A stretch of DNA of 64,000 bases, taken from positions 62,001 to 126,000 of the forward strand of contig NZ_BOPO01000149.1 of NCBI RefSeq assembly GCF_017312725.1, in the 5' to 3' direction. The notes under the pieces are model-generated. The model made no database searches. It worked only from the letters and a program-made list of their open reading frames with translations, and was not told the DNA's origin. A program made the translations under genes and the position numbers. Position 1 is the stretch's first letter. Each line of letters opens with the position of its first letter. Source of the stretch: Actinocatenispora comari (GTDB lineage: Bacteria > Actinomycetota > Actinomycetes > Mycobacteriales > Micromonosporaceae). Positions 5,271-48,338 of this stretch are shown in pieces.

Positions 5271-5957
5271 GTGAGCAGCCGCGCCCTTCCCGCACCTCGC
5301 CCCTGGTACCGCACCCTCGGCACCGTGCCCGCCCTCGCCGGCATCGGCTTCGCGGTGTCGTGGGTGGCCGGGCTGTCCGTCTCGTCGGTGTCCACCGACC
5401 CGCACGCCACCGGCGCCCAGGTGCTCGCCGACCTGTCCGGCCACACCGCCGCGCAGACCATCCAGTACCTGCTGACCGAGGGGCTGCCCGCGATCGGCAT
5501 CGCCATCGTCGCGGTCGCCGTCGCGCGCCGCGCCCGCTCCCGCGCCGGCAACGCCCTCGCCGGTACCGGCCTGGTCGCCGCGCTGCTCTCCCTCGTCATG
5601 TGCGCCCTCGGCCTGCACCTCACCCTCTGGGACGCGCCGCGCGGCGACGCCGCCACCGCCGGCGCCCTGTTCGACACCATCAGCCGGGTCGACGGGGTGA
5701 AAATGGCGCTGCTCGGCGCCATGGCCGCGATCGGCGTCGCGCTCGCCGGCCGTGGCCTGCCCCGCTGGGTGGCCTGGTGGGGCGCCGCCGTCGCCGCGTC
5801 CATGGCGGTCTGCGCCGTGGGCTACGTCTTCCTGCTGCCCCTCCCCGCCCAGGCGGCCGCCGTCGCCCTCCCCCTCCTCATCGTCTGGACCGCCGCCGCC
5901 GGCATCGCCAGCCATCTCCCCGCACCAAGGCGAACCCCAGGCACCTCTATGCGCTGA
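5271..5957 (+). CDS. Six-helix integral membrane protein, function unknown
   Basis: 228 residues from the GTG at 5271, chosen for AAGGAG at 5260-5265 five bases upstream. Hydrophobic segments lie near 15-35, 64-84, 90-113, 142-160, 168-190 and 193-214. I do not recognise the family. It follows the TetR gene at 4674 on the same strand. Its last codons (Gly-Thr-Ser-Met-Arg-stop) are supplied by the left end of repeat element copy 1, so the original C-terminus has probably been replaced or shortened by the element. Confidence 0.65.
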   Translation: MSSRALPAPRPWYRTLGTVPALAGIGFAVSWVAGLSVSSVSTDPHATGAQVLADLSGHTAAQTIQYLLTEGLPAIGIAIVAVAVARRARSRAGNALAGTGLVAALLSLVMCALGLHLTLWDAPRGDAATAGALFDTISRVDGVKMALLGAMAAIGVALAGRGLPRWVAWWGAAVAASMAVCAVGYVFLLPLPAQAAAVALPLLIVWTAAAGIASHLPAPRRTPGTSMR

Positions 5958-6655
5958 GGTGCTGCCCGAAGCGCTGCTGGGTTCGCTCTTGCTGGCGGTG
6001 TGAAGGCCACCTCTTTGCGCTGAGGTGCGCCCCAAGCGGCGATGCAAAAACCACGTCTGTCCGCTGAGGTGCGCCCCAAGCGGCGATGCAAAGACCACCT
6101 CTGACCGCTGAGGTGCGCCCCGAGCGGCGGTGTAAAGGCCACCTCTGTTCGTCGCTTTGACCCCTTGTGGGGGAATGCGAGGAGAGGGCTTCGCCCCCTC
6201 CTCGCGCTCCTTCCCCGCCAAGGGGGCCGCCCCCTTGGCCATCCCCGCCCAGCCCCCGGTACTGCTGCCCATCGACGCCGAGCAGCAGACGAAGAAGAAC
6301 GGGGCACCGGCCCGGCCTACCCATCACGGCCACGCCCGCGTCGCTCGCGTCGCGTCGCACCGTGGGCAGTTGGTTGTCGGGGCGGGCTAGGCGTCGATGG
6401 GCAGGCCGCACCGGGCCCCGTAGTTCCGAAGCGAGCCAGGCGGCGTCCTGCCTGGGCACCGGTCCCGAGCAGGGGATGTCAAGGGGGCGACTGCCCCCTT
6501 GATGGGGAGGGGGGTGTGGGGAGGGGCGAAGCCCGCTCCCCACGTTCCCCCACGGGGGTGAAAGAGGCGAACAGAGGTGGCCTTTACCACCCCAGCAACA
6601 GCGAACCCCGAGCCGACACGGGCGCTTCGGGAGCACCTCAGCGCATAGAGGTGCC
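5940..6655 (-). repeat. Repeat element copy 1 (complete, MITE-like)
   Basis: About 715 bp of non-coding DNA. Both ends carry the same 22-bp sequence, perfectly inverted (5941-5962 and 6633-6654: GCACCTC-N8-GAGGTGC, itself a hairpin). The inverted similarity continues for about 90 bp inward. On the left, three contiguous 44-bp modules start at 6009, 6053 and 6097, with a fourth module start at 6141 running into the core. The core has G/C hairpins (around 6200-6240 and 6480-6510). It is inverted relative to copies 2 and 3. It overlaps the stop codon of the 5271 gene and ends 2 bp from the stop codon of the convergent diguanylate-cyclase gene. Reading frames are not shared with the other copies. 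Confidence 0.9.
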
Positions 6656-6656
6656 G

Positions 6657-8126
6657 CTACGGTTCGGTGACCGTCGGCGGGAGAACCATGAGGGGGCGGG
6701 ACACGGCGCCGGGCTCGGCGAGTTTGGCCCCGTCCCGGCCGCTGCGCTTGACCGCGTAGAGGGCGTCGTCGGCCCGCCGCAGGGTGTTCTCGGCGGTCTC
6801 GCCGGGTTCGCGCAGGGCGACCCCGACGCTGATGGTGCGCCCGACCCGACGTGCCGCGGCGACGAGCCGTTCGGCGACGGCCTGCGCCTCGGTCTCGTGG
6901 GTCACCTCGACGACGGCGGCGAACTCGTCACCGCCGATCCGGTACAGGTCGTCCTCGGCGCGCAGGGTGGCCTGCAGCGCGCGGACCAGTTCGACCAGCA
7001 GCCGGTCGCCTTCCTGGTGCCCGTACGTGTCGTTGACGGCCTTGAACTGGTCGACGTCGATGGCGAGCACGGCGGTACGGGCGGGTTGCGCGCGGGCCAG
7101 CCGTTCGGTGAAGCGGCCGTGGTGGCCGAGCCCGGTGAGCGGGTCGGAGCTGGCCCGCAGCCGTAGCTGGCCGACCAGCCGGACGCGTTCGAGGCAGACG
7201 AGTGTCTGCGCGGCGAGCAGTTCGAGCAGGCTGACGGTGACGGTCTCGGGTACGTCGACCCGGTGGTCGACGGCGAGCAGCACGCCGCCGTCGTCGTGCC
7301 GGCCGCCGATCGGTACCGCGATCATGGTGCGGATGCCGGCCTCGGTGAGCGATTCGAACCCGCGGGCGTCGAGGCTGTCCGGGTCGCCGAGGCTGTAGGT
7401 GGAGCCGTGCCGGCGGGTACGGGCGGCGAGCAGGGCGAGCGCCGGCCGGTCGGCCATCACCAGCAGCCCGGCGAGCGGGCCGCGGGCCGCCTGTACCCGG
7501 GTGTCGCTGCCGGCGCCGACCGCGATCGCCGCCGAGGACAGCCCGGAGATGTCCTGGGTCGCGGCGAGGCAGCGTTGCAGGACGGCGGGTTCGTCGGCGG
7601 CGGCGGACAGGTCGACGGCGTGCCGGAGCAGTTGCTGGCCGGCACTTTCGGCGGGCAGGCCGCCGAGCCCGGCGATGCGCTCGCCGAGCACCTGCGCGGT
7701 CTGGTCCAGCGCGGCGCGTACCTGGTCGAGCGGCGGGCCGTCGGCCGACTCGATGTTGACGACGCCGAACGGTGGGCCGTGCGGGCCGACGATCGGCGTG
7801 CAGACCTCGGTGCGGACGTCCGGGTCGAGCGGGATGTAGTCGGGGTCGGCGCGCACGTCGCAGACCTCGGCGGCCTTGCCGGTGCGGAAGACCCTGCCGA
7901 TGACGCCGGCGTCGGACGGTACCCCGTCGAACACCTGCCAGGCCCCGGCGGCGCCGAAGCAGCGCAGCCGGCCGCGCAGGTCGAGCAGTACCGCGATGGT
8001 GCCGGGCAGTTGGTCGGCCAGCGCGCGGACCGCCGCCTGGCAGGCGTCCGGTACCGACGGCGCGATGGTCACCGTGGTCGCCAGCGCGTCGACGAGCCGT
8101 CCCTGATCGATGCCGTCGGTGCTCAC
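6657..8126 (-). CDS. Diguanylate cyclase with two GAF domains
   Basis: 489 residues from the GTG at 8126. Two GAF sensor domains (about 10-155 and 165-315) precede a GGDEF domain (about 325-475) with an intact GGDEF motif near 398-402. The product-inhibition I-site RxxD (RAED) sits five residues upstream. It should convert two GTP to c-di-GMP under control of a small ligand or light/redox state sensed by GAF; no membrane segment, so cytoplasmic. An in-frame GTG at 8207 would add an Arg-rich stretch, but a TACACT -10 at 8215-8210 puts it at the transcript start, so the later GTG is preferred. Single gene, ending against repeat copy 1. Confidence 0.9.
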   Translation of the reverse strand: MSTDGIDQGRLVDALATTVTIAPSVPDACQAAVRALADQLPGTIAVLLDLRGRLRCFGAAGAWQVFDGVPSDAGVIGRVFRTGKAAEVCDVRADPDYIPLDPDVRTEVCTPIVGPHGPPFGVVNIESADGPPLDQVRAALDQTAQVLGERIAGLGGLPAESAGQQLLRHAVDLSAAADEPAVLQRCLAATQDISGLSSAAIAVGAGSDTRVQAARGPLAGLLVMADRPALALLAARTRRHGSTYSLGDPDSLDARGFESLTEAGIRTMIAVPIGGRHDDGGVLLAVDHRVDVPETVTVSLLELLAAQTLVCLERVRLVGQLRLRASSDPLTGLGHHGRFTERLARAQPARTAVLAIDVDQFKAVNDTYGHQEGDRLLVELVRALQATLRAEDDLYRIGGDEFAAVVEVTHETEAQAVAERLVAAARRVGRTISVGVALREPGETAENTLRRADDALYAVKRSGRDGAKLAEPGAVSRPLMVLPPTVTEP

Positions 8127-8354
8127 GTGCCGGGGCCGAGCCTTTCTGTCGTACCGCGAACGCCGAGCACGACGTCGGCCGGCGCGATGGTCTCTCTCCG
8201 TCTCCACAAAGTGTACGTTGAGTAGCCGTCACCATGGCCGTGCGCGCTCGTTGCGCCAGTTCCCCACTCGGTGTCCGATTACCGCCGCCCAGTGAAACCG
8301 CACACACCCATTCGGGGGGTGGGCGGCTCCCGCCTGCACAATCCGAGAGGCAAG

Positions 8355-13535: not shown

Positions 13536-13600
13536 AAGATCGGGGGGTGCCGGGGGGCGAAGCCCCTCCGGCGCGGGGCCTGGGGGCTGCGCCCCCAGAA
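13536..13600. repeat. Palindrome-rich GC segment
   Basis: Contains GGGGCGAAGCCCC and CTGGGGGC-TGC-GCCCCCAG hairpins in series. The same type of G/C hairpins occurs in the cores of the three larger repeat elements, but there is no long similarity to them. Confidence 0.55.
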
Positions 13601-13608
13601 AACACACC

Positions 13609-13648
13609 GGGCGCCCCGATCCGCGCTTTCCGCGGATACAAGGCGCCC
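13609..13648 (-). terminator. Nested hairpin downstream of tRNA-Pro
   Basis: Outer stem GGGCGCC / GGCGCCC (13609-13615 / 13642-13648) enclosing ATCCGCG / CGCGGAT (13619-13625 / 13631-13637), 12 bp past the 3' end of the minus-strand tRNA. Confidence 0.6.
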
Positions 13649-13659
13649 AGGCGACCGGG

Positions 13660-13733
13660 TCGGGGTGGCGGGATTTGAACCCACGGCCTCTTCGTCCCGA
13701 ACGAAGCGCGCTGCCAAGCTGCGCCACACCCCG
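13660..13733 (-). tRNA. tRNA-Pro, anticodon CGG
   Basis: 74 nt. Acceptor stem CGGGGTG pairs with CACCCCG, discriminator A. Anticodon stem CTTCG/CGAAG with loop TTCGGGA gives anticodon CGG, reading CCG. T-loop GTTCAAATC is canonical. CCA is not encoded. Confidence 0.96.
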
Positions 13734-27887: not shown

Positions 27888-28736
27888 GTGACGTCGATGC
27901 ATCCCGCGACTCCTGCCGCACCGCCGACGCTCGGGCCCGGCCTCACCGCGCTGGTGCCGATCGCGCACGGCAGCACCGCCACGGTGTACCGGGCGTTGCA
28001 GGCGTCGGTGGGCCGCCCGGTCGCCGTGAAGATCGACAACCGGACGCTGGACACCGAGCGGGACCGGCGCCGGTTCCGGGACGAGGCGAACGCCACCGGC
28101 CGGGTCTCCGGCCACCCGCACGTGATCGACCTGTTCGACGCCGCGGTCAGCCCGGCCGGCCACCCGTACCTGGTGATGGAGCTGTGCAACGGGTCGTACT
28201 CCGACGACGTCGGCGTGCTGTCCCCGGCCCAGGTCCGGTCGGTCGGCATCCGCATCGCGAGCGCGCTGACCGCCGCGCACGCGGCCGGCGTGCTGCACCG
28301 CGACGTCAAGCCGGGCAACATCCTGCACACCCGGTTCGGCACCCCGGTGCTCGCCGACTTCGGCCTCGCCGTACTGCTGGACCAGCGGGACGGCACCGAG
28401 GCGCTCGACCCGCTCACCCCGGCGTACGCGGCGCCCGAGTCGGTCGCCGACGCCGTCGCGTTGCCGTCCGGCGACGTCTACTCGCTCGCCGCCACGCTGT
28501 ACGCGCTGCTCGGCGGGTACCCGCCGCGGCTGCCCGGCCCCGGCGTGCCGACCACCGCCACGCTGCTGGAGCTGTACGAGCAGCCGGTGCCCGGGTTGCC
28601 CGGCGTGCCGGACGCGCTGCTCGCGGTGCTGCGGCAAGCGCTGTCCACCGACCCGGACCGGCGACCGAGCGCCGCCGAGTTCGAGCAGCTCCTGGCCGGT
28701 GCCGCGGTCAGCGCACCGCCCGAACCGGTCGGCTGA
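27888..28736 (+). CDS. Soluble Ser/Thr protein kinase
   Basis: 282 residues from GTG 27888, chosen for the GGGGAGGAG just upstream. Eukaryotic-type kinase with Lys48 (VAVKID), catalytic HRDVKPGN (Asp139), DFG (157-159) and AAPES. The Gly-rich loop is short (IAHGSTATVYRA). No membrane segment or sensor domain, so cytoplasmic, unlike PknB. Lies between the cyclase and crp, convergent to crp. Substrates unknown. Confidence 0.9.
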   Translation: MTSMHPATPAAPPTLGPGLTALVPIAHGSTATVYRALQASVGRPVAVKIDNRTLDTERDRRRFRDEANATGRVSGHPHVIDLFDAAVSPAGHPYLVMELCNGSYSDDVGVLSPAQVRSVGIRIASALTAAHAAGVLHRDVKPGNILHTRFGTPVLADFGLAVLLDQRDGTEALDPLTPAYAAPESVADAVALPSGDVYSLAATLYALLGGYPPRLPGPGVPTTATLLELYEQPVPGLPGVPDALLAVLRQALSTDPDRRPSAAEFEQLLAGAAVSAPPEPVG

Positions 28737-28792
28737 ACCGGCCGGAGCGCGCCGGCGTCGGGCCGGCGGAGTCCGCGCCACGATGCACACGC

Positions 28793-28829
28793 ACCGGCCC
28801 GGGATCTCCGCTGGGGATCCCGGGCCGGT
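28793..28829. terminator. Bidirectional terminator between kinase and crp
   Basis: Perfect 14-bp stem (28793-28806 / 28816-28829), 9-nt loop, between convergent stops at 28736 and 28852. Confidence 0.85.
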
Positions 28830-28851
28830 TCGCGATGATGACGTGTACGGG

Positions 28852-29526
28852 TCAGCGGGCGCGCCGGGCCAGCCGCTCCGGGTCGAGGATGATCACGCTC
28901 TTGCCGTCCAGCCGCAGCCAGCCGCGCGAGGCGAAGTCGGCGAGCGCCTTGTTGACGGTCTCCCGGGAGGCGCCGACCAGCTGCGCCAGCTCCTCCTGGG
29001 TGAGGTCGTGGGTGACCCGCAGGACGCCGCCGTCCCGGGTGCCGAACCGGCCGGCCATCTGCAGCAGGTTCTTCGCGACCCGGCCGGGCACGTCGGTGAA
29101 GATCAGGTCGGCCAGCGAGTCGTTGGTGCGGCGCAACCGGCGGGCGAGCACCCGCAGCAGCTGCTCGGCGATCTCCGGCCGGTTGGTCAGCCACGGCCGC
29201 ATCGCGGCCTTGCGCAACCGGGCCAGCCGCAGGTCGGTGACCGCGGTCCCGGTCGCGGTGCGCGGACCCGGGTCGAACAGCGACAGCTCGCCGACCATGT
29301 CGCTCGGGCCCATGATCGCGATCAGGTTCTGCCGCCCGTCCGCGGCGCGACGACCGAGCTTCACCTTGCCGGAGAGCACGATGTACAGGCTGTCGCCCGG
29401 CTCACCCTCGGTGAAGACCACGTCGCCCTTGCGGAACTCGACGATGTCGAGATCCTTCGCGAGCGCTTCGGCAGCCTCAGGGTCGACACCCTGGAACAGG
29501 CCCGCCCGTGCCAGTACATCATCCAT
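28852..29526 (-). CDS. crp: cAMP receptor protein, Crp/Fnr family
   Basis: 224 residues, the same length as M. tuberculosis Crp (Rv3676). N-terminal cyclic-nucleotide domain with the phosphate-binding cassette [17 protein letters not shown], a dimer helix, and a C-terminal HTH ([24 protein letters not shown]). Global regulator responding to cAMP. ATG 29526 has RBS GGAGGTG. Completes the conserved block; here an adenylate cyclase lies about 1.2 kb away. Confidence 0.95.
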
Positions 29527-29745
29527 CGCGCACCTCCACCCCGCAGCCGGCGCTGCGCGGTTGAGTCTAGGCGTACCAACGCCGCAGATGTACGCACAAC
29601 GTCGATAAGCCGTCAGTTTCCTGGTCAAGGCGGGCGCGAGGTTGTGCCCCGGCGCCCGGCCTACCACCGATCTTGCCGTATCACCAGTTCAGTGCGCACG
29701 CGGGGCCGGTGCCCGCGGCCAGCGCCGGCACGTGAAGATGTCGCT

Positions 29746-30468
29746 ATGGACCCCAGGCTGACCGCGCGAACAGAACGAAATCGGTCGATCCCGCTGCTCG
29801 TGTGGGAGTTCACGGCGCCCCGGTCGTGTATCTCGTCCGGCCCGCTCGGCGGTGGCCTCACGGTCCGCGACTGGTTGATCAACGCCACCGTACCCCTGAG
29901 CTACGACCGGACCGATCCGGACCGGCACCTCGCCGAGATCGGCGCCGAGTTCGGCCTCACCGGTACCGGCGCCGGGCTGCTCACCGCCGTCGACGTCACC
30001 CGCTACCACGTCGCGGTCGACTCCGACGTGCACGCGACCGCCACCGTCGGGCTGTCCAGCCCCGCCTGGGCCGCCGCGCCGGACGGTCACTTCCGCCGCG
30101 AGGTACCGGCGGGCGACCGACCCGCCGTCTTCGCCGAGTACGAGACCGTCGAGTACCTGCCACCGGAGCCCTACCGGCCGGGCACCATCAACGTCGTCGT
30201 CGCGCTGCCGGTACCGCTGTCGCCCGCCGCGCTGGTCAACGCCGTCGTCACCGCCACCGAGGCGAAGACCCAGGCGCTGTACGAGGCCGGCGTCCGCGCC
30301 ACCGGTACCGCCTCGGACGCGGTCGTCGTGCACTGCCCCGTCGACGGCGAGCCCGAGCCGTACGGCGGGCCCCGATCGCCGTGGGGTGCCCGGCTGGCGC
30401 GCGCCGTGCACTCGGCCGTACTCACCGGCAGCCGCGCCTGGATCGCCAGTCCCACCTCTTTGCGCTGA
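29746..30468 (+). CDS. cbiZ: Adenosylcobinamide amidohydrolase
   Basis: 240 residues, usual length for CbiZ. Family signature SCISSGPLGGGLTVRDWLINATVP, GAGLLTAVDV and GTINVVVALPVPLSPAALVNAVVTATEAKTQAL. CbiZ hydrolyses adenosylcobinamide to adenosylcobyric acid, salvaging corrinoids into the B12 pathway; cytoplasmic. No other cobalamin gene or cobalamin riboswitch is visible nearby. The final residues Pro-Thr-Ser-Leu-Arg and the stop codon come from the left end of repeat element copy 2. Start by homology; no strong RBS. Confidence 0.88.
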   Translation: MDPRLTARTERNRSIPLLVWEFTAPRSCISSGPLGGGLTVRDWLINATVPLSYDRTDPDRHLAEIGAEFGLTGTGAGLLTAVDVTRYHVAVDSDVHATATVGLSSPAWAAAPDGHFRREVPAGDRPAVFAEYETVEYLPPEPYRPGTINVVVALPVPLSPAALVNAVVTATEAKTQALYEAGVRATGTASDAVVVHCPVDGEPEPYGGPRSPWGARLARAVHSAVLTGSRAWIASPTSLR

Positions 30469-31035
30469 GGTGCTCCCGAAGCGCCCGTTTCGGCTCGGGG
30501 TTCGCTTGTTGGCACCGGGGTAAAGGCCACCTCTGTTCGCCGCTTTGACCCCTTGTGGGGGAACGTGGGGAGCGGGCTTCGCCCCTCCCCACACCCCTCC
30601 CCATCAAGGGGGCAGTCGCCCCCTTGACATCCCCTGCTCGGGAATCGGTGTTCAGGCAGGACCCCGCCTGGCCGCTTCGGAACTACGGGGAGTCGGTGCG
30701 GCCTGCCCATCGACGCCCAGCCCGCCACGACCAACCCAACCCCGCCTGCAACGCGACGCGACGCGATGTGAAGCGGGCGTTGCTGTGATGGGTAGGCCGG
30801 GCCGTGCCTCGTGCTTCTTCGTAGGTCACTGGGCGTCGATGGGCATCCTCACCGGAGGCTGGGCGGGGATGGCCAAGGGGGCGGCCCCCTTGGCGGGGAA
30901 GGAGCGCGAGGAGGGGGCGAAGCCCTCTCCTCGCATCCCCCCACGCGGGGTCAAAACCGCGGACAGAGGTGGCCTTTACAACGCCAGCCCGAGCGCACCT
31001 CACCGGTAGAGGTGGCCCTGCACCACGAGCCCAAG
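30453..31035 (+). repeat. Repeat element copy 2
   Basis: About 580 bp. Left end CACCTC-N8-GAGGTG matches the terminal repeat of copy 1. The core follows the copy 1 sequence read in reverse complement, and is in the same orientation as copy 3. The right end has two diverged CACCTC/GAGGTGG modules (30965-31020) and lacks the intact terminal repeat. Supplies the stop codon of cbiZ. Indels not divisible by three separate it from the other copies. Confidence 0.88.
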
Positions 31036-31329: not shown

Positions 31330-32439
31330 GTGAAGCTCCAGCGGCATGGCGCGCTCGCCGCGCTGGCCATCACGGCCACGTTGGCGATGGCCGCCTGCGG
31401 TTCGGACAACACCGGCTCGGGCGGCGGCAGCAAGAGCACCGCCAAGGCGCCGAGCACCGAATGCGCCAAGGGTTCGCTGACATCGCAGGGTTCGACGGCC
31501 CAGAAGAACGCGATGGACCAGTGGATCAAGGCGTACCAGACGAAGTGCTCCGGTGCGCAGATCACCTACGACGGCACCGGTTCGGGCGCCGGCATCCAGG
31601 CGTTCACCTCCGGTACCGCGGACTTCGCCGGCTCCGACTCGGCGCTCGCGGACGGGGACGAGCAGAAGGCGGCGGACAAGCGCTGCACCGGCGGTGAGGC
31701 GCTCGACCTGCCGATGGTGACCGGCCCGATCGCCGTGGTCTACAACGTCCAGGGCGTGAAGGACCTGCAGTTCAAGCCGGCCACGCTGGCGAAGATCTTC
31801 GCCGGCAAGGTCAAGACCTGGGACGACCCGGCGATCAAGGCGGACAACCCGAAGGCGAAGCTGCCGTCGACGCCGATCCAGGCGGTGCACCGCTCCGAGT
31901 CGTCCGGCACCTCGGACAACTTCACCAAGTACCTGTCGAAGACCGCCGGCGCGGACTGGACGTACGACCACGCCAAGGAGTGGAAGGCGCCGGGCGGGGT
32001 GGGCGCCAAGGGCTCCGACGGTGTGTCGGCGAAGGTGAAGCAGACCGCGGGCACCATCGCCTACGACGAGTGGTCGTACGCGACGACCAACAGCCTCGAC
32101 ATCGCGAAGATCTACAACGGGGCCGGGCAGTACACCGAGCTGACCGCGGAGGCGGCCGGCAAGACGGTCGAGGGCGCCAAGGTCGTCGGCCAGGGCGACA
32201 ACCTGAAGCTCGACATCGACTACAACACCAAGGTCGCCGGGGCGTACCCGATCGTGCTGGTCACGTACGAGATCGCGTGCAGCAAGGGCAACGACTCCGG
32301 CAAGCTCGACCTGCTCAAGTCGTTCCTGACGTACGTCTCGTCCGACGACGGCCAGGCCGCGCTGACCCAGCAGGGCTACGCGCCGCTCCCGAAGTCGGTG
32401 CAGACCAAGGTGCAGGGCGCCATCAAGGGCCTGGCCTGA
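31330..32439 (+). CDS. pstS: Phosphate ABC transporter, substrate-binding lipoprotein
   Basis: 369 residues. Lipoprotein signal with lipobox MAAC (Cys23), Gly/Ser linker, then the PstS fold with phosphate-binding GSTAQ, TGSGAGIQAF and HRSESSGTSDNF. Anchored outside the membrane; captures phosphate for PstCAB. GTG start, RBS GAAGGGAA. First gene of pstSCAB behind a PHO box. A strong hairpin separates it from pstC, consistent with higher PstS output. Confidence 0.97.
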   Translation: MKLQRHGALAALAITATLAMAACGSDNTGSGGGSKSTAKAPSTECAKGSLTSQGSTAQKNAMDQWIKAYQTKCSGAQITYDGTGSGAGIQAFTSGTADFAGSDSALADGDEQKAADKRCTGGEALDLPMVTGPIAVVYNVQGVKDLQFKPATLAKIFAGKVKTWDDPAIKADNPKAKLPSTPIQAVHRSESSGTSDNFTKYLSKTAGADWTYDHAKEWKAPGGVGAKGSDGVSAKVKQTAGTIAYDEWSYATTNSLDIAKIYNGAGQYTELTAEAAGKTVEGAKVVGQGDNLKLDIDYNTKVAGAYPIVLVTYEIACSKGNDSGKLDLLKSFLTYVSSDDGQAALTQQGYAPLPKSVQTKVQGAIKGLA

Positions 32440-44979: not shown

Positions 44980-45825
44980 ATGGAGACGCGGGAGCTGCGG
45001 TACTTCGTGGCCGTCGCCGAGGAACTGCACTTCGGCCGGGCGGCGGAGCGGCTCGGCATCGCGCAACCCCCGCTGTCCCGGGCGATCCGCCAGCTCGAAC
45101 ACCGCCTCGGCGCGAGACTGCTGGAGCGGTCCAGCCGCGCGGTCGCGCTGACCGAGGCCGGCGCGACGCTGCTGCGGGAGGGCCGGGCGGCGCTGGACGC
45201 GGTGGCCGCCGCCGAACGCCGCACCCGCCGGGCCGCGCAGGCGACCGGCGCGGGCGGCATCGTCCTCGTCACGAAGGCCGGCGCCGCCGGCGAACTGCTC
45301 GCCAAGCTGCTCGACGCGTACGCCGCCGAGCCCGGCGCGGTCCCCGTCGACGTGCTGCTGTGCGGCCCCGGCGAGCAGGAACGGCTGCTGCGCACCGGAC
45401 ACGCCGACGTCGGCCTGCTGCACCTGCCGTACGACCGGGTCACCGGGCTGGACACCGAGCCGCTGCGGACCGAGGGGCAGGTCGCGGTGCTGCCGGCCGG
45501 GCACCCGCTGACCACCCGGACGCAGGTACGGATGGCCGACGTCGCCGCGCTACCCGGCCTGCCGCAACCGCGCTGGCCGGCCGCCGACGGAAGCTACCCG
45601 GACGGCCCCGGGCCGCAGGTCCGGGATCACACCCAGCTGCTGCAGCTGATCGCGCTCGGCCGGACGATGGCGGTCATGCCCGAGACGGTCCGCGCCCACC
45701 TGCACGACGACCTCGTCGCCGTACCGGTCGTGGACGCCCCCGACGTCACCACGGTCATCGCCTGGCCACCCCAGACCCGTTCCCACCCCATCGCCACTCT
45801 CATCGCTACGGCCATCCGCCTCTGA
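44980..45825 (+). CDS. LysR-family regulator
   Basis: 281 residues. N-terminal winged HTH (ELRYFVAVAEELHFGRAAERLGIAQPPLSRAIRQLEHRLGARLLERSSRAVALTEAG) and a periplasmic-binding-protein-like effector domain. Leaderless: TACCGT at 44968-44973, 6 nt, ATG. Likely autoregulated and controlling the divergent SDR gene. Repeat element copy 3 starts 8 bp after its stop. Confidence 0.93.
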   Translation: METRELRYFVAVAEELHFGRAAERLGIAQPPLSRAIRQLEHRLGARLLERSSRAVALTEAGATLLREGRAALDAVAAAERRTRRAAQATGAGGIVLVTKAGAAGELLAKLLDAYAAEPGAVPVDVLLCGPGEQERLLRTGHADVGLLHLPYDRVTGLDTEPLRTEGQVAVLPAGHPLTTRTQVRMADVAALPGLPQPRWPAADGSYPDGPGPQVRDHTQLLQLIALGRTMAVMPETVRAHLHDDLVAVPVVDAPDVTTVIAWPPQTRSHPIATLIATAIRL

Positions 45826-45833
45826 ACCGGGGG

Positions 45834-46480
45834 GCACCTCTTTGCGCTGAGGTGCTTCCCGAAGCGCTCGTGTCGGCGGTGGGTTCGCTGTTGCTGGCGG
45901 TGTAAAGGCCACCTCTGTTCGCGGTTTTCACCCCCGTGGGGGAACGTGGGGAGCGGGCTTCGCCCCTCCCCACACCCCACCCCATCAAGGGGGCAGTCGC
46001 CCCCTTGACATCCCCTGTCGGGGAATCAGTGATCAGGCAGGACCCCGCCTGGCCGCTTCGGAACTACGGGGCCCGGTGCGGCCTGCCCATCGACGCCCAG
46101 CCCGCCACGACAACCAACTGCCCACGGTGCGACGCGACGCGAAGCGGGCGTGGCCGTGATGGGTAGGCCGGACCGGGGCCCCGTTCTTCTTCGTAGGCCA
46201 CTGGGCGTCGATGGGCAGCAGTACCGGGGGCTGGGCGGGGATGGCCAAGGGGGCGGCCCCCTTGGCGGGGAAGGAGCGCGAGGAGGGGGCGAAGCCCTCT
46301 CCTCGCATTCCCCCACAAGGGGTCAGAGCGTGAACAGAGGTGGCCTTTACACCGCCGCTTGGGACGCACCTCAGCGGGTAGAGGTGGCCTTTACACCACC
46401 AGCCCGGACACACCCCGCGACACGAGCGCTTGGGACGCACCTCAGCGGGTAGAGGTGGCCTTTGCGCCGGCAGCAAGAGC
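45834..46480 (+). repeat. Repeat element copy 3
   Basis: About 645 bp. Left end 45834-45855 is GCACCTC-N8-GAGGTGC, one base off the copy 1 terminal repeat. The core matches copy 2 in the same orientation and copy 1 inverted. At the right, AGAGGTGGCC module starts occur at 46336, 46380 (44 bp apart) and 46451. The element ends in the CAGCAAGAGCG portion, so the right terminal repeat is missing. It fills the space between the LysR stop and the convergent efflux gene. Confidence 0.9.
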
Positions 46481-46530
46481 GGACGCGGCGACGCGAGACG
46501 GGCCGCGCCGCCCCGAACGGCGACCGGCCG

Positions 46531-48114
46531 CTAGACGTGCGGTACGGCTGGGGCGCTGGAACCGTTGCGGGAGCGGCGGATCAGCAGCGACAGCCCGACC
46601 GCGACCACGGCCACCACCGCCGCCACGGTGAACGCCAGGTGCATCCCGTCCAGGAACGACAGGTTGCTGGCCTTGGTGATCAGCGCCGCGATCTCCGCCT
46701 TGGTACCCGGCGGTACCGGTGCCACGCCCCCGGCCACCGCGCTCTTGGCCGCGTCGACCTGCGCCGGTGTCAGGGCGGGCAGGTGCTGGTCGGTCCAGTG
46801 CCCGTTGAGCACGTTGCCGACCCGGGCGGTCATCACCGCGCCGAGCACCGCGGTACCGAGGGCGCCACCGACCTGCATGGCCGCCTGCTGGACGCCGGAC
46901 GCGACGCCGGACAGCTGCACCGGCGCGTTGCCGACGATGACCTCGGTGGCGCCGACCATGACCACGGACAGGCCGAGGCCGAGGATGACGAACCAGAGCG
47001 AGGTGAGGCCGGCGGACGCCTCCATCGGCAGCCGGGACAGGCCGAACATCGCGATCGCGACCGCGGCCATCCCGGTGGCGACCGGGCCGCGCGGCCCGAT
47101 CTTCCCGATCAGCGCACCGGCGATGGGCGAGCCGACCACCATGCCGGCGGTCATCGGCAGCAACCGGACGCCGGACTGCACCGGCGAGAGGCCGTGCACG
47201 AGCTGGAGGTAGAAGGTGACGAAGAACAGCGAACCGAACATCGCGAACGCCATCAGGACCATCAGCACGGTACCGACCGACAGCGACCGGGACCGGAACA
47301 GGCCGAGCGGCAGCAGCGGGTCGCGGGCGGACCGTTCGCGCAGGATGAACAGCACCGCGAACACCGCCGCACCGACGAACAGGCCGATCGTGCGCCAGTC
47401 GCCCCAACCGAAGTCGGACGCCTTGATCACGCCGAACACCAGCGCGAACATCGCCACCGACAGCAGCGCGATGCCGGGGACGTCGGCCCGCGAGCCGCGG
47501 TCGACCCGGTGGTTGCGGCCCAGTACGAGCAGGCCGAGGACCAGCGCGAGCGCACCGACCGGCAGGTTCACGAAGAACACCCACTGCCAGTTGACGTGCT
47601 CGACGAGCAGGCCGCCGACGATCGGGCCGGCCGCGGTGGACAGGCCGATCGCGGCACCCCAGATGCCGATCGCGATGTTCAGCTTCTCCCGCGGGAACGC
47701 CTCGCGCAGCAACCCGAGGGCCGCCGGCTGCAGCAGCGCACCGAAGACACCCTGCAGCACCCGGAACGCGATGATCAGGCCGATGCTGCCGGAGAGCCCG
47801 ATGATCCCGGAGCTGGCGGCGAAGCCGACCACGCCGACGAGGAACATGCTCTTGTGCCCGAACCGGTCGCCGAGCTTGCCGGCGGTGACCAGGAAGACGG
47901 CCAGCGCGAGCAGGTAGCCGTTGGTGATCCACTGCAGGTCGGACAGGGACGCGTGCAGCGACTTGCCGATGGCGGGGTTGGCGATGGCGACGATGGTGCC
48001 GTCCAGCGCGACCATGATCACGCCGAAGGCGACGGCGACCAGGGTCGCCCACGGGCCCCCGCGGCCGGTGCTGCGTGCGGTCGTGATCGCCGTACCGGCC
48101 GCAGTGGTACTCAT
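46531..48114 (-). CDS. DHA2-type MFS drug efflux transporter (14 helices)
   Basis: 527 residues with 14 hydrophobic segments. Motif A GKLGDRFGHKSMFL, motif C-like GIWGAAIGLSTAAGPIVGG, and ALDGTIVAIANPAI in helix 1, typical of the EmrB/QacA family of proton-coupled exporters. RBS GGGGGAGA before ATG 48114. Its promoter contains a palindromic operator and it is divergent from a TetR gene, the standard arrangement for a drug-inducible pump. Confidence 0.92.
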   Translation of the reverse strand: MSTTAAGTAITTARSTGRGGPWATLVAVAFGVIMVALDGTIVAIANPAIGKSLHASLSDLQWITNGYLLALAVFLVTAGKLGDRFGHKSMFLVGVVGFAASSGIIGLSGSIGLIIAFRVLQGVFGALLQPAALGLLREAFPREKLNIAIGIWGAAIGLSTAAGPIVGGLLVEHVNWQWVFFVNLPVGALALVLGLLVLGRNHRVDRGSRADVPGIALLSVAMFALVFGVIKASDFGWGDWRTIGLFVGAAVFAVLFILRERSARDPLLPLGLFRSRSLSVGTVLMVLMAFAMFGSLFFVTFYLQLVHGLSPVQSGVRLLPMTAGMVVGSPIAGALIGKIGPRGPVATGMAAVAIAMFGLSRLPMEASAGLTSLWFVILGLGLSVVMVGATEVIVGNAPVQLSGVASGVQQAAMQVGGALGTAVLGAVMTARVGNVLNGHWTDQHLPALTPAQVDAAKSAVAGGVAPVPPGTKAEIAALITKASNLSFLDGMHLAFTVAAVVAVVAVGLSLLIRRSRNGSSAPAVPHV

Positions 48115-48260
48115 GTGGGTCTCCCCCGCAAGATCGATTGATGGTGGGCAGTCGGCGCGCGGCGAGCTGTCCCCCAAGACACCCGATCGAACGGGCTGTG
48201 CCACGCCGCGCTGCCGACGCCCGAGCCGCGCTCCCCCACGCGACTCAACCCCCGCGGCAC

Positions 48261-48290
48261 AGCATATTGTCAGTCGCTGACAAGTGGCAA
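48261..48290 (-). promoter_or_regulatory. Promoter of the efflux gene with internal operator
   Basis: Minus strand -35 TTGCCA (48290-48285), 18-bp spacer, -10 TATGCT (48266-48261). The spacer holds the perfect palindrome TTGTCAG-TCG-CTGACAA (48267-48283), so a bound repressor would block RNA polymerase. Confidence 0.85.
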
Positions 48291-48338
48291 TGTGAGACAC
48301 ATGACCCTGACGCTCAGGACGACACCGGCGAGTATCGA

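Follow-up and report, generated by a model that had tools for sequence, protein, structure and literature searches.

Three copies of a dispersed, palindromic and non-coding element, designated W1, W2 and W3, lie between genes in the window, the whole stretch of 64,000 nucleotides that was analysed (Table 1). Alignment within the window placed W1 on the plus strand and W2 and W3 on the minus strand, so that W1 is inverted relative to the other two, and W1 shares 87.5% identity with W2 over 568 columns and with W3 over 678 columns; the original prediction had given the same number of copies and the same orientations.

A full unit measures 600-820 bp and consists of two inverted arms of ~115 bp inside terminal 20-nt hairpins of the form CACCTC-N8-GAGGTG. 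From the outside inward, the order is a terminal hairpin, optional hairpin units, arm A, a variable centre, arm B in inverted orientation and the mirrored terminal part, the optional units being extra hairpins of the terminal kind that occur in some copies in ~44-bp steps, with three of them in W1. Reading of W1 confirmed a perfect terminal inverted repeat of 22 bp, as had been predicted, and the imperfect inverted similarity of about 90 bp described alongside it is real (80%) and belongs to a palindromy larger than had been noted, with a reverse-complement self-match of 68% across residues 193-648 of W1. In the 7.96-Mb draft genome there are 22 occurrences of the terminal pattern, CACCTCTNNGCGCNGAGGTG, and none of a reversed control, and the fold of W1 has a z-score of -16.6 against 20 shuffles, which together exclude chance. 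The 16 copies tested for target-site duplications (TSDs) carry the terminal 20-mer, or a near-match with up to 2-3 mismatches, at both ends. Since the longest stop-free stretch per frame varies among the six copies compared, in agreement with the earlier observation that frames differ between copies, the copies have no reading frame in common.

Table 1. The three element copies of the window, their parts and the adjacent genes (window positions)
Feature	Position	Strand	Details
W1, full-length	5940..6655	+	both termini; by alignment and reading
W1 left terminal hairpin	5942..5961	+	CACCTC-N8-GAGGTG; TGA of the upstream ORF (5955-5957) in its 3' half
W1 internal tandem hairpin units	6008..6115	+	at 6008, 6052 and 6096; ~44-bp period; terminal kind
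W1 arm A	6132..6246	+	consensus: small CCCC/GGGG hairpin, then hairpin with 9-bp plus 4-bp stem, then hairpin with 10-bp stem
W1 variable centre	6247..6471	+	between the arms
W1 arm B	6472..6587	-	inverted relative to arm A; stems altered by paired substitutions
W1 right terminal hairpin	6634..6653	-	
W2	30453..31015	-	arms 30520-30634 and 30865-30979; terminal hairpin 30453-30472 contains the stop of the CbiZ-like gene
W3	45833..46484	-	terminal hairpin 45835-45854; arms 45902-46015 and 46237-46350; hairpin units at 46367 and 46438
Predicted gene left of W1	5325..5957	+	no Pfam match; stop inside the element
GGDEF/GAF protein gene right of W1	6657..8207	-	stop codon starts one base past the element
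CbiZ-like gene left of W2	28699..30468	+	
Solute-binding protein gene right of W2	31330..32439	+	
LysR-type regulator gene left of W3	44980..45825	+	
MFS transporter gene right of W3	46531..48300	-	

Placement relative to neighbouring genes

The genome of the window, G000, is a 7.96-Mb draft of 151 contigs, some of which end inside elements; three other genomes of the genus are referred to as G001-G003, G002 and G003 being those of sister species and G001 that of a more distant one. The flanking genes of 13 G000 copies were judged by wobble-position substitutions together with Pfam, and the predicted gene to the left of W1 received moderate coding support (70 of 151 differences at third positions). 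For ten of the 13 copies, the stop codon of a neighbour lies inside the element or within 10 bp of one of its ends; the preceding stop is 77 bp away from L019 and 419 bp away from L021, and L017 is not among the ten. In W1, W2 and L078, a copy found only in G002, the TGA of the terminal hairpin is itself the stop codon of a gene or predicted gene.

Neighbouring genes converge on W1, W3, L010 and L012, and probably also on L020, judged by its G002 counterpart, and they are co-directional around W2, L014b, L015, L018, L019 and L021 (6 of the 13 G000 copies). Among the 11 that could be judged on both sides, there is no case of divergent genes, L013 and L017 having been judged on one side. As a background, a rough gene caller found 76 of 396 adjacent gene pairs to be convergent, a figure to be taken as rough since the caller misassigned the strand of the LysR region that flanks W3 on the left (corrected by Pfam). 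No T-run was seen after the arm hairpins by reading. The position behind genes and the two-sided hairpins would make a role as bidirectional terminators, or another role at 3' ends, plausible.

A second hairpin-pair repeat was observed in the window at 13536-13612, between a plus-strand gene and a minus-strand tRNA-Pro (13658-13733). It has at least 18 matches in G001-G003 among the matches listed, tRNA matches excluded, and is found in G001 too. Within the window and the 46 loci examined it occupies two places, both between convergent genes, and it may represent a terminator-like family of the genus.

Copy number and host range

For counting, 69 arms were used to build a covariance model of the arm (~115 bp), which at E ≤ 0.01 yielded 50 arm matches in G000, 11 in G001, 35 in G002 and 25 in G003. 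When merged, these correspond to 33 loci in G000, 19 in G002 and 17 in G003, including 13, 14 and 7 two-arm loci, respectively; the locus counts omit seven weak or short arm matches (four in G000, two in G002 and one in G003, with 46 of the 50 G000 matches used), and one two-arm G000 locus among the 33 is an apparent assembly duplicate. G001 contains 10 loci of a clearly diverged version in which the hairpin order is kept. These were missed by BLAST with copy 1, which detected elements in three of the four genus genomes. With 33 loci found by the covariance model, the family extends beyond the three copies of the window, and the suggestion of possibly hundreds of copies genome-wide was too high. 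The loci are unevenly distributed along the chromosome in G002 and G003, in which the third proximal to the origin (dnaA located) holds 14 of 19 and 14 of 17 loci (binomial p 4e-4 and 5e-5, respectively).

A survey of 81 genomes of the taxonomic family with the covariance model gave matches in four, all of this genus, and none in the 77 genomes outside it, under stricter filters by which some weak matches are lost. BLAST with copy 1 across 200 family genomes returned some match in 20. Those in 17 of the 200, all outside the genus, had E-values of 1e-4 to 1e-3, covered 28-70 bases, fell in the variable centre in nearly every case, and were taken as chance matches because the covariance model found nothing in the 77 non-genus genomes. 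Plasmid and phage collections gave no blastn match to copy 1, and IMG/VR and GTDB contigs no match to one exact 27-mer of the arm, a search that may omit records close to the window. Rfam gave zero matches in five copy loci and, in the window, only the tRNA-Pro. A description of the element family was not found in those parts of the open-access literature that were available, including parts of PMC10969869, PMC3116915, PMC3733652 and PMC2267715. Among the genomes searched, the element family is specific to the genus.

Conservation of the arm hairpins

Each arm comprises two strong GC hairpins, with z-scores of the arm folds between -4.1 and -6.4. Standard pairs make up 98.6% of the pair cells in the arms, compared with 94.0% in shuffles, and 104 cells are changed on both sides, compared with 36.5, while G-U accounts for five cells in the arm stems. 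When the structures were slid along the arms, pairing dropped to 51-67%. The double changes are confined to 5 of the 20 pairs, a number that 65 of 500 shuffles also reached, and the pair types number 8, below the 11.0 of the shuffles, indicating few independent covariation events. In the terminal hairpin, reading showed the outermost pair to be kept by two-sided change (C-G, T-A or G-C) in several copies and broken in a few.

A G-U pair on one strand corresponds to an A-C mismatch on the other, and the scarcity of G-U is therefore consistent with a structure that is important as DNA or on both strands. Template switching can yield such paired changes without selection, according to the part of PMC8794818 that was available, and could also account for the paired changes and the scarcity of G-U in the arms.

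Shared sites and traces of movement

For all 13 distinct G000 copies examined, the orthologous G002 site is occupied by a whole or partial element, as determined by both flanks for 12 of them and by one flank for L020 (contig ends). The flanks of shared sites are mostly 85-98% identical (87-98% for the comparison of G000 with G002), and by reading the junctions match to the base in L017/L085, L015/L112 and L013/L098. In G003, the orthologous site is also occupied for seven of the 13 copies (W1, W2, L012, L013, L014b, L015 and L020). The W3 site corresponds there to a 1.8-kb stretch with no element detected, the L018 site has kept the element's end alone (by reading), and the remaining four sites were not found among the G003 stretches examined. 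An extra terminus match in G003, at position 6510621, is apparently what remains of the orthologous L018 site after loss of the core, and another, at 7206566, lies beside a hairpin-rich stretch (about 400 bases read).

An element that is confined to one species was found at the 3' end of a gene which, from its sequence, we take to be treY: G002 alone of the four genomes carries it, and the C-terminus of the product reads VALLATSLR in G002 compared with VALLTR in G000, VALLTHP in G003 and VALLTRD in G001, which have kept a native C-terminus. It is not a clean empty site, since G000 and G003 carry 5.4 kb and about 0.4 kb of other DNA there, respectively. The G000 stretch (L139, G000:C45:75800-84500) has about 5.4 kb of other genes in the gap that holds the G002 element, and by reading its ORFs resemble genes for an XRE-type regulator, an ATP-grasp protein and a methyltransferase; the gap at the 3' end of treY is used by different inserts in different species.

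For G001, nine stretches with its 10 elements were compared with 20 element stretches of G002 and 14 control stretches. Two syntenic blocks were recovered, both with element stretches, and in both the elements occupy different gaps, a result that covers two of the 10 G001 elements, the other eight not being comparable. By reading, a G001-type element fills a convergent gap which is short and free of elements in G002. This, together with the treY insertion specific to G002, shows that the elements have moved. No direct repeat longer than one base was present at the exact ends in any of the 16 copies with both ends, and when shifted boundaries were allowed the mean was 2.31, compared with 2.30 for random pairing. 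The elements are now probably almost immobile, and their sites are mostly old.

Homogenisation within genomes

Of 31 cores (11 from G000, 14 from G002 and 6 from G003), 30 have a nearest neighbour from their own genome, which none of 5000 label permutations matched. Orthologs were included for 24 copies, and 23 of these are on average more identical to their paralogs than to the best-matching ortholog. Ortholog core identities range from 0.72 to 0.87, and the tree groups the cores by genome; it omits half copies as well as L020, L021 and L092, and the identity counts omit L011. The latter, on contig C124, was left out since C1 and C124 share the element coordinates and the left flank, so that it looks like an assembly duplicate. 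Pure inheritance predicts that orthologs are more alike than paralogs, and the reverse, as seen here, points to concerted evolution. Moreover, in both G000 and G002 the compatibility of adjacent variable sites is higher than when their order is shuffled (p = 0.0005 each), and all four combinations are present in 61% and 74% of site pairs, respectively; alignment error and repeated mutation could add to this mosaic signal. Mosaic variation with short tracts suggests gene conversion, as replacement of whole elements would leave no such tracts. On the sequence evidence, the cores appear to evolve in concert, most likely through gene conversion.

The exception is L098 of G003, which groups with the G000 elements. 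This copy (G003:C1:926370-926794) has an identity of 0.92 to L010 and lies at a site common to L013/L091 and to all three species, and its import by recombination is possible. Among other individual loci, L105, the G003 counterpart of W1, has a centre in which a ~50-bp part of the element is repeated in tandem about four times, as seen from repeated BLAST pieces. L011 and L012 (G000 contigs C124 and C1) share their left flank and diverge at the element, and the C1 arrangement is the only one seen among the G002 and G003 loci examined; the pair reflects duplication in the assembly or else a rearrangement at the repeat.

Comparison with known repeats and enzymes

REPs and REPINs are described, in the available parts of PMC3116915 and PMC3733652, as inverted palindrome pairs in extragenic DNA, in many cases no more than ~20 bp from the 3' end of a gene. 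The two-arm copies are similar in that arms A and B form an extragenic, inverted pair of hairpin-forming palindromes with a spacer. However, at 600-820 bp the element is far longer than a REPIN (about 100 bp), the outer flanks of its terminal hairpins vary and show no shared GTAG or CGTC tag (by reading), and it has no recognised RAYT in these genomes, occurs at tens of loci and shows strong concerted evolution at fixed sites. A REP-type enzyme had been put forward as a possible mobiliser, yet the PF01797 proteins, one each in G000 and G002 and none in G001 or G003, look like IS605-type TnpA by reading, these Y1 transposases have no element DNA nearby, and no RAYT was recognised in the four genomes. 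With two IS605-like PF01797 proteins alone, and no element DNA near them, membership in a RAYT-driven REPIN population was rejected.

Prokaryotic MITEs, in the available part of PMC10969869, are short, non-coding and dispersed, with terminal inverted repeats and a predicted ability to fold. The proposal of a MITE-like nature holds to the extent that the element is dispersed and non-coding, has inverted termini, encodes neither a transposase nor a conserved ORF and shows evidence of transposition. It fails with respect to TSDs (0 of 16 copies) and to an autonomous element with the same termini, as all 22 terminus matches in the G000 draft assembly fall in known copies and none marks an element combining these ends with a transposase. 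The interior also differs, being made up of two inverted hairpin arms and not of a deleted transposase gene. Lacking the RAYT link and the tag of the one class and the TSD and autonomous partner of the other, the family is filed neither as a REPIN nor as a MITE.

Partial parallels exist outside mobile DNA. Bidirectional intrinsic terminators between convergent genes are stable GC hairpins that work on both strands behind stop codons. The element likewise has stable GC hairpins readable on both strands behind stop codons, but it differs in having no T-run, in its very large size with two arms plus terminal hairpins and in being repeated and homogenised genome-wide, and its role would be a predicted one. 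The rRNA operons are multicopy sequences under concerted evolution, and they share with the element the greater likeness of copies within a genome than between orthologs, as well as mosaic variation, whereas the elements are non-coding, intergenic and without known function.

Origin and maintenance of the family

The observations are probably best explained by an old, non-autonomous palindromic family that spread mainly behind stop codons, is now near-immobile and has been homogenised in place. The spread would have occurred long ago by transposition, with an enzyme that recognised hairpins and is now lost or went unrecognised; such an enzyme is suggested by ends that are hairpins and by the absence of TSDs. 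Gene conversion, through homologous recombination between the ~500-bp cores, would then have made the copies alike at their sites. Less firmly, the elements may be tolerated or kept because the arms act as transcript 3' ends on two strands, either as terminators or as 3' stabilisers. Against this explanation, only one species-specific insertion was found in the trio of G000, G002 and G003, and it is not clean; no transposition enzyme was found; and the grouping of L098 with G000 needs import or another history. The missing T-run and the 6 of 13 G000 copies between co-directional genes also count against it.

The likeness among copies might instead reflect recent transposition in an ordinary, active population of MITE- or REPIN-like elements moved in trans by a resident transposase. 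Such a population would account for the terminal inverted hairpins, the inverted doublet of palindromes and the lack of an ORF, for the location near gene 3' ends, as reported for REPs in the available part of PMC3733652, and for the one G002-specific insertion. We nevertheless find it improbable, given that all 13 G000 copies examined are at sites occupied in G002 too, that TSDs are missing from 16 of 16 copies, that no RAYT was recognised in the four genomes and the Y1 transposases of G000 and G002 have no element DNA nearby, and that no G000 terminus match falls outside the known copies. Fixed sites with sequence turnover would also be expected if new copies entered and displaced resident copies or terminal hairpin units, a self-targeting form of replacement. 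The species-typical character of the copies up to their subterminal motifs, with unchanged outer junctions (by reading), is compatible with this, the tandem terminal-hairpin units could be scars of nested insertion, and L098 of G003 is a G000-like copy at a site common to three species. The mosaic tracts, being shorter than the element, are better accommodated by gene conversion, however, and no enzyme is known for such a process, which makes replacement of this kind another unlikely account.

A further alternative is that the repeats were never mobile and are functional bidirectional terminators that arose by duplication, were kept by selection and were homogenised by recombination. In line with such an origin, a stop codon lies inside or within 10 bp of 10 of the 13 G000 copies, none of the 11 judged copies separates divergent genes, the covariation involves few G-U cells, and the second hairpin-pair repeat at 13536-13612 is itself placed between a plus-strand gene and a minus-strand tRNA. 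Elements that never moved do not, on the other hand, explain the species-specific treY insertion or the other sites occupied by the two comparable G001 elements, and 600-820 bp with extra terminal hairpins far exceeds what a terminator needs; we therefore give this origin little credence. The old, near-immobile family homogenised in place remains the preferred reading.

Likeness among dispersed repeats is usually read as a sign of recent transposition. In this family the sites are old and common to related species, yet the copies are alike within a genome, so that homogenisation in place, and not movement, explains the likeness. It is conceivable, though doubtful, that the repeat represents a genus-wide system, concentrated around the replication origin, that keeps its positions across species and renews its sequence in place, either through very efficient ectopic gene conversion of palindromes or as a self-replacing mobile element. 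The family offers a natural bacterial system in which ectopic gene conversion could be measured between palindromes of ~500 bp, and it serves as a warning that MITE or REP activity should not be inferred from the likeness of copies alone. If the arms do terminate transcription on both strands, a mobile repeat would have become a standard 3'-end part in one genus.
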